Of a stretch of 20,404 nucleotides of DNA, positions 2,999-20,404 are shown in pieces (the first letter of the stretch is position 1; each line of letters opens with the position of its first letter). The stretch covers positions 1 to 20,404 of IMG/VR virus record IMGVR_UViG_3300035670_001467. The stretch is one strand, 5' to 3'. The notes beneath the pieces were generated by a model that saw only the letters and a list, made by a program, of their open reading frames with translations, ran no database searches and was not told where the DNA came from. This DNA comes from a virus. Made by a program: the position numbers and the translations under genes.

Positions 2999-3046
2999 TC
3001 ACCGTATCAACCGCGACCCCGACCAATATTTTTGAGAATGGTTCAT
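2999..3046 (-). CDS. 15-residue ORF, short sister of the Ser-Arg repeat ORF
   Basis: The reading frame starts with MNHSQKY, exactly as does the 82-residue repeat ORF at 3313-3561, because both begin inside the same 23-bp duplicated sequence. It continues with Trp-Ser-Gly-Ser-Arg and soon ends. Its ATG overlaps the stop of the preceding gene (ATGA), as expected for a translated operon gene. It retains about two CGACNN units. It could be a collapsed copy of, or the ancestor of, the long repeat ORF. Translation is unproven. Confidence 0.35.
   Translation of the reverse strand: MNHSQKYWSGSRLIR
3024..3046 (-). repeat. 23-bp direct repeat, copy 1
   Basis: Identical for 23 bases to 3539-3561. On the minus strand it begins ATGAACCATTCTC and therefore supplies the start codon and first seven residues of a small ORF. 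CGACNN units adjoin both copies (cgaccccgacca here). Confidence 0.9.
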
Positions 3047-3300
3047 TTTAAAATTCCAAACGATTCAATCGACGACAATGCGACATACCAATCGTGCGGA
3101 AGCTTTTGATAATCAGTCCAATCGTTTGATGTTAACTCGCCCGTTTCATAAACTATTCCGCAATCGGTAACTTTAATACATTTTTCATCTACACCGATGA
3201 GCTTACCAGTATAGATGTAGCGGCAACAAAAGACAGTGATACGTTCACCTAGCAAAGCTTCCAAACCTTCTGCTTGTGATTCTTCGATAATTTTTTTCAT
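3043..3300 (-). CDS. Phage hypothetical, small beta-barrel-like (85 aa)
   Basis: An 85-residue protein with a strand-rich middle (RITVFCCRYIYTGKLIGV, KCIKVTD, GIVYETG) and a conserved-looking end with WYVALSSIESFGILK. The pattern TGKLIGVDEKCIKV resembles small Sm/SH3-like barrels, and proteins of this layout are frequent in phage early operons. The function is unknown. It follows the repeat ORF by 12 bases, with AGGA before the ATG, and its stop overlaps the next small ORF. The barrel call is an inference from the strand pattern. Confidence 0.65.
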   Translation of the reverse strand: MKKIIEESQAEGLEALLGERITVFCCRYIYTGKLIGVDEKCIKVTDCGIVYETGELTSNDWTDYQKLPHDWYVALSSIESFGILK

Positions 3301-3312
3301 ACGTTTTTTCCT

Positions 3313-3561
3313 TTATTTTGTTAATGACCACGACCTCGACATCGACTTCGACCACGCCCACGACCTCGACCTCGACCTCGACCTCGACCTCGACCTCGAC
3401 CTCGACCTCGACCTCGACAACGACCTCGACAACGACCTCGACCACGACATCGACCACGACCTCGACATCGACCACGACCACGACCTCGACCACGACCACG
3501 ACCACGACCTCGACCACGCCCACGACCTCGACCACAAACAATATTTTTGAGAATGGTTCAT
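3313..3561 (-). CDS. Ser-Arg/Ser-Trp dipeptide-repeat protein (82 aa)
   Basis: An 82-residue frame: a unique head MNHSQKYCLW, then about 35 X-Ser dipeptides where X is Arg, Trp, Met, Leu or Lys (two units have Ala instead of Ser), then LTK. AAAGG lies before the ATG, and the stop is followed at 12 bases by the next gene, which has its own AGGA, so the ORF sits properly in the operon. The repeat is six bases long and never shifts frame. All six frames are largely open here because the DNA is a simple repeat, so openness alone proves nothing. Start signal, spacing and the sister ORF favour this strand and frame. The product would be strongly basic and aromatic, a possible nucleic-acid binder. 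Function unknown. Confidence 0.5.
   Translation of the reverse strand: MNHSQKYCLWSRSWAWSRSWSWSWSRSWSWSMSRSWSMSWSRSLSRSLSRSRSRSRSRSRSRSRSRSWAWSKSMSRSWSLTK
3325..3534. repeat. Hexanucleotide tandem repeat, 35 units of CGACNN
   Basis: There are 35 consecutive 6-bp units with no insertion or deletion. By count: CGACCT 16, CGACCA 10, CGACAT 3, CGACAA 2, CGACTT 1, CGCCCA 2 and TGACCA 1. Nine identical CGACCT units lie in a row at 3361-3414. Only the last two bases vary freely. On the coding (minus) strand these are codon positions 1 and 2 of the residue before Ser. The array is likely prone to slippage in 6-bp steps. Confidence 0.95.
3539..3561 (-). repeat. 23-bp direct repeat, copy 2
   Basis: Second copy of the 23-bp sequence at 3024-3046. 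On the minus strand it forms the start of the dipeptide-repeat ORF. The two copies bracket the array and the 85-residue gene. Confidence 0.9.
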
Positions 3562-3586
3562 AAGAGCCTTTCTAACACATCAAATT

Positions 3587-5501: not shown

Positions 5502-6393
5502 TCCATATCTCCGGTGATGATTGTGCTAAACGTACTGTTGTTTTATTTTTAAGCAGATTCATGCTGTTGAAAATGATGTTCCAGTTGTAGTCGTTAAGCT
5601 TTCTGTTGGTTTCCAATAGTTTTCGTGGCGTCTGACAGTTTCCTATCGACCCCGGATAAAAGAAGTTCCAAAACCAACTGCTATTGTTTTCGCTGAAAAG
5701 GTATTTTATCAAATCTCGAATTGTGTCCGAGTTAGCTGATTTGTACTTTCGGCGAACATTGAAAAGGTCTTCAGCAAATCTTTCCTTTGTCCAAGACGGG
5801 TGTTTTATCCATTCGCCGTGTCTTTGTGTTTTTGCCGCTGAGACAGCGGTGAGCCACTCTTCGGCTAGGTCTAAATCTTGTTGTTCAAATTTTAATCTTT
5901 TTACTGCCTCCTTCGAACTTGTTTCGAGGGGGGAATGAGATTTAGATAATTCTTTATTTCTTCTTTTCTTTATTTCTTTACTATTGTCTCCTCTAGTGTC
6001 TCCTCTAGTGTCTTCTCTAGTGTCTCCTCTAGTGTCTTCTCTAGTGTCTTCTCTAGTGTCTTCTCCGCTTTGATATTTACTGTAATTTACAAGGGTTATG
6101 ATCGTTCCTAAGCGGCTTTTTTCTGAAATTATTGTTTCGTTTCGTTCAAGTTTTGCGATTGTTCTTGAAATTGTGTTTTTCGCAAATCCTAATTTCGAAG
6201 AAAGTTCCCTTAGACTTGTTGCTATTTGTCCGGCCATAAGTTTCTTCTTGTGCTTTCTCAATTCTGTTTTTCCGTCTTCGTAGTTTGCCATCGCAACAAG
6301 ACAACAAAGCGTAGAGATAGCCCAACCGTCACCTTCGTATTTCTCAATTAAAGAGCGATGAATTTTAACCCACCCGTTACCGTAACGACCCAT
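5488..6393 (-). CDS. Replication initiator with winged helix and internal iterons (301 aa)
   Basis: A 301-residue replisome-organiser type protein. Residues 1-50 resemble the N-terminus of phage O/DnaD-like initiators (GWVKIHRSLIEKYE). Residues 55-105 form a winged helix (GQIATSLRELSSKLGFAKN, then TISRTIAKLERNETI). Residues 110-136 are the repetitive EDTR/GDTR stretch encoded by seven 12-bp iterons, followed by a Lys-rich linker. The C-terminal part is Trp/Phe-rich (SSWFWNFFYPG) and may recruit the helicase or loader. Its likely role is to bind its own iterons and open the origin, as lambda O does. An AAGGA-ATG-TCCTT hairpin directly precedes the start and could hide the Shine-Dalgarno. Confidence 0.8.
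   Translation of the reverse strand: MGRYGNGWVKIHRSLIEKYEGDGWAISTLCCLVAMANYEDGKTELRKHKKKLMAGQIATSLRELSSKLGFAKNTISRTIAKLERNETIISEKSRLGTIITLVNYSKYQSGEDTREDTREDTRGDTREDTRGDTRGDNSKEIKKRRNKELSKSHSPLETSSKEAVKRLKFEQQDLDLAEEWLTAVSAAKTQRHGEWIKHPSWTKERFAEDLFNVRRKYKSANSDTIRDLIKYLFSENNSSWFWNFFYPGSIGNCQTPRKLLETNRKLNDYNWNIIFNSMNLLKNKTTVRLAQSSPEIWNESA
5941..5982. other. AT-rich stretch beside iterons (possible unwinding element)
   Basis: On the plus strand this 42-base stretch is mostly T and A, with TTCTTT and TTTATTTC runs, and directly adjoins the iteron array. Iterons followed by an easily melted tract form the usual layout of a phage origin lying inside the initiator gene. Confidence 0.6.
5983..6066. 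repeat. Seven 12-bp iterons, putative replication origin
   Basis: Seven head-to-tail 12-bp units, consensus AGTGTCTYCTCT on the plus strand, at 5983, 5995, 6007, 6019, 6031, 6043 and 6055. The first starts AT and the last ends CC. They lie within the initiator reading frame and encode the DTRE/DTRG repeats. The regular spacing near one helical turn fits cooperative binding by the initiator. Confidence 0.85.
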
Positions 6394-18314: not shown

Positions 18315-20404
18315 ATGACAATCAATTTAACGGTTAGAAGCGGAACAGCGCGTGCATACCCTCAAGACGGAGACGAAGACTGGGGAGTTGACGCGAGTGC
18401 TCTCATGGTTGACGTCGTAGCAGGCGTAAACGCATCGGCAACGACAAACAACACAATGCAATACGACGCAATTGTAGGGAGTGCGGCTCAAGTAACGGCA
18501 GGAACAGCAACCCATACAACGTTTGCTGCAATGTTAGCAGCCGTTTCAAACGGTGACATTGTTTTCGTGCGCGAAGGTTCATGGGAACAAGACGCAACTT
18601 TTGACATAACTAAATCTATTACAATCGTTGGCTCTGGCGAAGGCTCAGTCTTAACGACTTCAGCCGCATTTGCCGCAGGTGCGATTGTTACTATATCGGC
18701 CGATGGTGTAACTCTTCACAACGTAAAAATCGATGACGGAACAGGTGCACCTGATTACGCAATCAGCATTTCAGCGGGAGTGGTTCGTTGCAACGCCTCG
18801 GTAAAGATTGACGGTACGTATGCCATAGCCCCTGTTCTAAACGACTCTGATTGTGTTTCAGACACAACCGCCGACGGTGCGGTTGTAGGTCCATCGGGTG
18901 ACGTCCAAAGGCAGGTTAAAGATAACGATGCTACGGCGTATCAGATTGGATCTTCTGTAGATCCTGACATGTTGGTTTTTGATACAACAACGGGTGCAAA
19001 GACACTCAAATTTAACTGTGCGCTAGGCGGAAGTAACGTTTTAGACGAAGACAACATGGCAAGCGATAGCGCAACCTCTCTTGCTACGCAACAGTCCATA
19101 AAAGCCTATGTTGATACGAAAACAGCGGCTCAGAACGAATTTACAGAACTTACCGATACGCCTGCAAGTTATGTAGGCCAAGCCGAAAAACTCGTTAAAG
19201 TCAATGCAGGTGAAAATGCCCTTGAATTTTATGATCAATCAAGCATCGATCATGATGCGTTGACAAACACCCACAATTTAACAACCGATATTGACCACGA
19301 CGCGATAACGAATACGCATAACCTCACAACTGATATTGACCACGACGCGTTGACAAATACTCATAATTTAACAACAGATATCGATCATGATGCGTTGACG
19401 AATACACACAATCTTACAACCGATATTGACCACGACGCTTTAACAAACACGCATCAAGGCGTTGATACGGCCGACGCCCCTACGTTTGACGGAGTGACGT
19501 TAACCGATGCTATTGTTTTTGATGAGCTTGCCGCAACCCCGGCCAATCCAGGCGCGGGTGATAAAAAGTTTTATGCTAAAAACGATGGCAAACTTTACAC
19601 ACTTGATAGCGCAGGAAACGAGATTGAAGTAGGATCGGGCGGCGGCGGCGGTGGCATAAACTATATTGAGGATAGCGACGCTGAAGCAGGAACAGGTTCA
19701 TGGGCAACGTATGCCGATGCAGCTGGGACAACTCCTGTAGACGGCGACGGTGCAGGCGCAACGGTAACATGGACACAAAACACGACGACTCCGCTTCGTG
19801 GTACGGCTGATTTTAAGCTTGCGAAAGACGCCGCTGATAGACAAGGCGAAGGCGTTTCGTATGATTTTTCGATTGACCGCGCTGATGTTAATAAACAGCT
19901 TTGGATATCGTTTGACGTCGATGCAACAGACACAGACTACGCCGCAGGAGATCTCGTCGTTTATGTATACGACATTGATAATACGGCTCTTATCACACCA
20001 AGCTATACATCTATAGCAGGGGCTTTGTATGAGTTTAAATGCTCTTTCAATGCAACAGATAGCGTAAACTATAGACTAATCATTCACGTTTCATCGACTA
20101 ATGCAGCGGCTTACGACATTTATTTTGATAATTTTAAAATTGGCCCAGAAGAGTTGATACAGACGACTCCCGTTTCGGATTGGACATCCTATACCGCTAC
20201 TTTAAACTCTGATACAGCCGTAACAAAGGTTACAAAGTACCGTCGTATTGGTGATACAATAAAAATCATAGGTACATTAACTTGGTCAGGTGCCGGTAAT
20301 AATTCTGATTTAACCGTAGCTCTCCCTTCTGGTTTAACAATCGACTCAACAAAAATTGGAAGTACAACAGCATATGAATGTACGTTAGGGACCGCTTTTT
20401 GGAA
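18315..20404 (+). CDS. Fibre or spike protein (partial, 3' end outside window)
   Basis: A frame open from ATG 18315 (GAAAGG upstream) to the right edge, 696 codons so far. Residues about 60-200 look like a right-handed beta-helix (ITIVGSGEGSVLTTSAAF, VTISADGVTLHNVKIDD). Five 15-residue repeats of the IDHDALTNTHNLTT type follow at residues 310-384, typical of trimeric phage fibres, then a Gly-rich hinge (about 440-448) and further beta-rich carbohydrate-binding-like domains. It lies directly after the capsid gene, where some phages (for example phi29) encode head fibres, so it may decorate the capsid or form a tail spike. The receptor is unknown. Confidence 0.8.
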   Translation, partial: MTINLTVRSGTARAYPQDGDEDWGVDASALMVDVVAGVNASATTNNTMQYDAIVGSAAQVTAGTATHTTFAAMLAAVSNGDIVFVREGSWEQDATFDITKSITIVGSGEGSVLTTSAAFAAGAIVTISADGVTLHNVKIDDGTGAPDYAISISAGVVRCNASVKIDGTYAIAPVLNDSDCVSDTTADGAVVGPSGDVQRQVKDNDATAYQIGSSVDPDMLVFDTTTGAKTLKFNCALGGSNVLDEDNMASDSATSLATQQSIKAYVDTKTAAQNEFTELTDTPASYVGQAEKLVKVNAGENALEFYDQSSIDHDALTNTHNLTTDIDHDAITNTHNLTTDIDHDALTNTHNLTTDIDHDALTNTHNLTTDIDHDALTNTHQGVDTADAPTFDGVTLTDAIVFDELAATPANPGAGDKKFYAKNDGKLYTLDSAGNEIEVGSGGGGGGINYIEDSDAEAGTGSWATYADAAGTTPVDGDGAGATVTWTQNTTTPLRGTADFKLAKDAADRQGEGVSYDFSIDRADVNKQLWISFDVDATDTDYAAGDLVVYVYDIDNTALITPSYTSIAGALYEFKCSFNATDSVNYRLIIHVSSTNAAAYDIYFDNFKIGPEELIQTTPVSDWTSYTATLNSDTAVTKVTKYRRIGDTIKIIGTLTWSGAGNNSDLTVALPSGLTIDSTKIGSTTAYECTLGTAFW
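19242..19466 (+). repeat. Five 45-bp coding repeats in the fibre gene
   Basis: 45-base units start at 19242, 19287, 19332, 19377 and 19422 (the last diverges after 12 codons). The protein unit is nearly invariant, while codons differ mostly at silent positions (GAT/GAC, CAT/CAC, TTG/ATA), so selection acts on the protein repeat. Confidence 0.9.

Follow-up and report, generated by a model that had tools for sequence, protein, structure and literature searches.

Sequence comparison places the hexanucleotide array of the window, by which we mean the whole 20,404-nt stretch of viral DNA analysed, in a conserved two-gene module found in about 100 distinct uncultured phage loci. The first gene of the module encodes a small acidic protein with a predicted Sm fold, and the second gene, of which the array would be the coding body, encodes an X-Ser dipeptide-repeat protein, denoted here as XS. 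There is good support for translation of the X-Ser frame, and translation and the module, considered jointly, are close to certain. Our best explanation of the whole, to which we give a probability of roughly one half, is that XS and the Sm-fold protein are produced by coupled translation and form an RNA-binding condensate whose valency is set by array length.

The 82-aa X-Ser protein of the window starts with ATG, reads MNHSQKYCLWSRSWAWSRS...SLTK, and consists of a basic leader (MNHSQKYCL) followed by dipeptides in which Arg, Trp, Met, Leu, or Lys precedes Ser. The start codon of the 85-aa partner gene follows 12 nt after the end of the X-Ser ORF. Codons in the Ser position number 36 (TCG 32, GCG 2, TCA 1, and ACA 1) and lie in a single register with zero indels. 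The X codons comprise 13 TGG, three ATG, two TTG, and one each of AAG, TTA, and AAA; the remaining 16 of the 37 are AGG, nine of which form one unbroken RS run of the kind by which SR/RS proteins are recognized. The longest run of perfect CGACNN units contains 26 units (3361-3516), compared with a maximum of two in 200 shuffles of the window. The preliminary description had reported 35 units without an indel; the array is real, and this number is correct if near-perfect units are included with the 26 perfect ones. Taken alone, the array of the window is also open in other frames, and an open frame in a single window is therefore no proof of coding.

In the window, the long X-Ser copy lies upstream of the Sm-fold gene and a shrunken copy of 15 codons lies downstream, at the site where the X-Ser gene is usually found in L131 and most relatives (Table 1). 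L131 is the nearest relative of the window, with a partner 73% identical that is followed by three tandem X-Ser copies. An X-Ser copy upstream of the partner is also present in L022 and L193. Neither the second leader copy nor the significance of the 85-aa gene lying between the two had been recognized in the preliminary description.

Table 1 Features of the X-Ser/Sm-fold module in the window.
Feature	Position	Strand	Basis or remark
X-Ser dipeptide-repeat gene, 82 aa	3313..3561	-	Sequence and homologous ORFs; leader and frame kept in more than 100 phage loci
Shine-Dalgarno-like AGAAAGG	3567..3573	-	5 nt before the X-Ser ATG; read from the sequence
85-aa acidic protein with predicted Sm fold (type A partner), net charge -5	3043..3300	-	Relatives and AlphaFold2 model
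Contracted second X-Ser gene, MNHSQKYWSGSRLIR, 15 codons	2999..3046	-	ATGA overlap with the stop of the Sm-fold gene
Duplicated leader DNA, ATGAACCATTCTCAAAAATATTG, 23 nt	3539..3561; second copy 3024-3046	-	Sequence comparison

The loci in IMG/VR were chosen by a profile of the 85-aa partner, independently of the downstream repeat. This profile identified 315 relatives (type A), and among the best 80 of them, an X-Ser ORF was located directly behind the partner in 74 of the 78 that could be evaluated, a proportion that the profile could favour since it was built from members at loci found by their arrays. An array-based scan returned many more X-Ser ORFs than those linked to this partner. The X-Ser ORFs without the 85-aa gene were mostly behind a different gene of ~110 aa (type B), which carries the motif string RTVT...TG...AAWIADSGRF...EVEP and is distantly related to type A by profile comparison (hhalign 95.7%, E 1e-8). 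A separate profile scan found 359 type B relatives, and an X-Ser ORF was found behind the partner in 60 of 78 loci among the best 80. The other 18 (L224 and 17 others of L212-L291) had no detected X-Ser gene, and Sm-fold genes without one behind them were also observed in L142, L143, and L160. Such genes suggest that the Sm-fold partner may act alone in some phages. No other neighbouring gene was common to more than six of 61 loci. Profiles were required: used as single sequences, neither the 85-aa protein nor the terminase retrieved any relatives.

A tblastn search of the 85-aa protein against GenBank phages returned one record, MW202825.1 (Manatee Spring; L010), with 67% identity. In this record, two X-Ser ORFs lie behind the partner homologue, and both have an ATGA overlap as their start. 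Within its X-Ser tract are 33 nt (6018-6050) that we take to be an Illumina adapter; the assembly would have failed at this point, and the true array is probably longer. The record is listed as complete in GenBank despite this adapter-like sequence. GenBank contains one type B-linked X-Ser protein, recorded as hypothetical (UOF78858.1). Searches starting from the window itself were less productive: its module region gave no nucleotide match to GenBank phages, tblastn of the XS protein gave none, probably because of the low-complexity filter, and a codon-pattern search for MNHSQKY gave three matches, all by chance. Rfam and tRNA scans were empty. No RNA recognition motif was found in the XS chain, which showed only a weak low-complexity match to PRP38_assoc (E 0.029, below the cut-off).

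Four tests support translation, the first of which concerns the phase of the start codons. Wherever an ATGA or GTGA start overlapped the stop of the partner gene, it was in phase with the X-Ser frame, in 26 of 26 type A and 29 of 29 type B loci (55 of 55 in total), the chance of being in phase being one third for each and shared ancestry being a caveat. After greedy thinning at 80% partner identity, which was used because single-linkage clustering had joined type A into a single cluster, 41 of 41 overlap starts were in phase. One of the 26 type A loci (L178) has a stop codon after the overlap start, and its array uses a separate start codon further on. The preliminary description had proposed a translated, basic X-Ser repeat protein within an operon, and had named relatives with the array but a broken frame or start as evidence against it. 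Across more than 100 loci, all overlap starts were in phase and no array ran past its stop, and the conservation of frame and start in relatives supports the proposal. The 52 complete arrays end with their ORF, and in the four with further repeats nearby, these repeats form another complete gene that has a leader of its own.

The codons of the invariant residue point in the same direction. Ser in the XS arrays is encoded by TCT, TCG, TCA, TCC, AGC, and AGT, and in four type A loci nearly every serine codon is AGC, while the protein shows the usual pattern. These AGC arrays occupy separate places in the partner tree, requiring four changes, of which at least two are forced. No single-base path leads from TCN to AGC through serine, which argues that the amino acid is what is conserved. 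The leaders share a basic aromatic motif (e.g., LKQKYRS, KRNKFRS, and KKKKYWS) of the type (K/R)x(K/R)(Y/F/W)(R/W)S, after which come ~10 to 45 X-Ser dipeptides. Arg, Trp, and Gly predominate at X, with Gly and Trp as common as Arg. Leader and array are repeated together in loci with several copies. In L014, at least 14 tandem X-Ser genes were observed behind one Sm-fold gene, mostly with the leader MITKR(T/S)(K/R)W.

Among loci whose partner genes are identical, array length differs by 6, 48, or 84 nt; these lengths come from metagenome assemblies, in which repeats are poorly handled. The suggestion that the repeat can change length without losing its frame is borne out by such six-base steps between near-identical relatives. 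Slippage between neighbouring units was rejected as the sole source of the arrays, since enrichment of identical X residues is absent at lags 1 and 2 and slight at lags 3 to 5, a pattern implying a contribution from larger duplications or from substitution. Variation within arrays is by far the greatest at the first X-codon base, at 1.58 bits compared with 0.6 or less elsewhere, and changes of this base in NGG yield Arg, Gly, or Trp. The single most variable base per unit had suggested a diversity-generating retroelement, and this candidate is not favoured; no reverse transcriptase was noticed among the ORFs examined. Nearly all X codons end in G, and Gly and Arg at X are encoded almost only by NGG; GGG accounts for 94% of the Gly codons in XS but 19% of those in neighbouring genes. 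This bias exceeds what selection on the protein alone requires. One possible reason is that TGG is the sole Trp codon and that NGA becomes a stop if its first base changes to T; another is a role at the nucleotide level.

Both partner types are predicted from their models to have an Sm fold. The AlphaFold2 model of type A, based on 47 aligned members, had a pLDDT of 93.9 and contains a helix and strands. The best 50 VIA-align rows for this model were all Sm/LSm proteins, archaeal Sm proteins, or complexes containing them, with Z from 9.6 to 10.6 (at 10.6, rmsd 2.1 over 68 residues), and Foldseek agreed with Sm (best E about 2e-3). A separate AlphaFold model of type B (pLDDT 88.1) also matched Sm proteins, with Z up to 9.6 (rmsd 1.9, 65 residues). 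Both models show a helix followed by a five-stranded bent barrel, as expected of Sm/LSm proteins. At the level of sequence, none of the 26 members compared with PF01423 (LSM) exceeded the cut-off, a single member giving a match at E 0.064, and the LSM profile had no match in the window while controls gave matches. Canonical Sm sequence signatures were thus not found, and RNA binding by the partner is not assured. The NCBIfam family MM0924, on which our literature search found nothing, matched 22 of the 47 type A members weakly (best E 2e-4). The two products differ sharply in charge: the partners are acidic (median pI 4.8 for type A and 5.2 for type B), and XS is strongly basic (median pI 12) and Trp-rich.

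The ATG or GTG of XS often overlaps the stop codon of the Sm-fold gene, and we propose that translation of the two genes is coupled in such cases and that both products would be made together. XS is probably disordered, and its Arg and Trp residues may bind the acidic, Tyr-rich Sm-fold partner. Together they could bind RNA as a ribonucleoprotein or condensate that would target the RNA of phage or host in the course of infection, its valency being determined by array length. The molecular role assigned here to XS, that of a disordered protein that binds RNA or drives condensation together with the Sm-fold protein, is plausible but falls a little short of even odds. We advance only tentatively the fuller picture of a phage ribonucleoprotein-condensate module, with an Sm-fold RNA-binding core and an RS/WS/GS partner whose valency is tuned by hexanucleotide slippage. 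The 18 type B loci lacking XS, the NGG bias, the absent Sm signatures, and the origin of the array lengths in metagenome assemblies count against our best explanation.

Several known systems resemble parts of this module. SR/RS-domain proteins such as SRSF1 likewise combine Arg-Ser repeats with a small RNA-binding-type domain; in the phages, however, the repeat has a gene of its own, Trp and Gly also occur at X, and the partner has an Sm fold rather than an RRM. RS peptides bind acidic and aromatic surfaces (PMC10023157). The predicted fold of the partner and its basic low-complexity companion are reminiscent of Sm/LSm proteins, some forms of which carry RG or RGG tails, but the phage protein is acidic, has no Pfam LSM match above the cut-off, and has its tail-like part as a separate, often coupled protein. 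Borg elements contain fast-evolving DNA repeats within ORFs, with units divisible by three and encoding disordered stretches (PMC9879509). The XS repeats likewise lie within an ORF and have a unit length divisible by three; Borg repeats vary from locus to locus, whereas XS keeps one dipeptide grammar and one kind of partner across phages. A further parallel was seen at a single locus (L027, 5426-4564, minus strand), where a DUF6948 protein (Pfam E 1.6e-20), a small protein from a family with members similar to the Sm-fold model, is overlapped by an X-Gly (GSGYGDG) repeat ORF. The repeat there is Gly with Ser, Tyr, or Asp, and the pair is possibly a parallel system with an acidic repeat. A search for DUF6948 in 398 genomes gave no match, and its control was likewise empty.

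The leading rivals to our explanation are antitoxin-like control of a harmful peptide and DNA condensation, both of which we regard as unlikely. Arg/Trp richness is known from antimicrobial peptides, and XS could be a cationic peptide harmful to the host cell or a competing phage, with the acidic Sm-fold protein, made first, binding and controlling it. The opposite charges, the acidic partner gene in first place, and translational coupling would fit such a pair. However, one X-Ser copy of the window precedes the partner, XS is present in numerous tandem copies in some phages (L014 has at least 14), and alternating Ser and Gly is atypical of membrane-active peptides. Alternatively, XS could be protamine-like and pack phage DNA or the host nucleoid, with the Sm-fold protein as its carrier, as its median pI and its high Arg and Ser content would allow. 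Against this, the partner fold is of an RNA-protein type, Gly and Trp equal Arg in frequency at X, and the module of the window lies among small genes on the nuclease/recombination/replication side, distant from the packaging genes.

Two further rivals deny that the protein matters. The repeat might act as DNA or RNA, being G-rich, through NGG codons read by rare tRNAs, a Shine-Dalgarno-like GGAG, or a quadruplex, with the protein as a by-product. The preliminary description had raised a DNA or RNA element as an alternative, and the strong NGG bias would fit it. A G-quadruplex was modelled in nine of 32 arrays, and the quadruplex idea is weak. The all-AGC arrays nevertheless disfavour such an element, since unrelated Ser codons (TCN and AGC) give the same protein pattern; frame, leader, and stop are all conserved, and the predicted RNA structure is no more stable than that of synonymous controls (mean -56.5 vs -63.8). 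We consider this rival improbable. A chance microsatellite in a non-essential region, open by accident, would accord with the rapid change in array length and with hexamers leaving several frames open, but the partner, the leader, the overlap start, and serine across codon families are conserved over more than 100 loci. The phase of the overlap starts strongly disfavours such slippage noise, which we consider very improbable. Among all these readings, the coupled XS/Sm-fold module forming an RNA-binding condensate remains the one that we prefer. If true, bacterial viruses would possess a counterpart, probably convergent, of the Sm/SR chemistry of eukaryotic speckles.

The module is common in environmental phage contigs and nearly absent from GenBank phages, where it was found in two of 50,697 records, both from an environmental sample with no named host. 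Partner homologues were not found in ~700 genomes (type A) or ~400 genomes (type B), in searches run without a positive control, and no partner homologue was found in plasmids. Family libraries contain no name for the 85-aa protein or the X-Ser protein. The open literature, coverage of which excludes most subscription papers and preprints, contained no description of such a gene pair, and the module may be of a new kind. Ordinary similarity searches miss the X-Ser repeat, and annotation often omits short ORFs. The module offers a minimal, separable two-part system for studying how dipeptide low-complexity proteins cooperate with a folded partner, and the natural spread of array length and of the Arg/Trp/Gly mix provides ready variants for tests of valency and sticker composition.

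Other repeats and genes in the window were also observed. About seven copies of a 12-bp repeat lie at 5981-6065 within a DnaD-like helicase-loader gene (protein EDTREDTRGDTR) and resemble origin iterons set within a replication gene. Repeats of 45 bp at 19257-19454 encode HDALTNTHNLTTDIDHD in a tail-side ORF truncated by the end of the window. Positions 186-1046 encode a papain-like C1 peptidase (Pfam PF00112, E 1e-50) with an apparent signal peptide, which adjoins a small ORF for a putative M15-type peptidase; the two form an unusual possible lysis pair.
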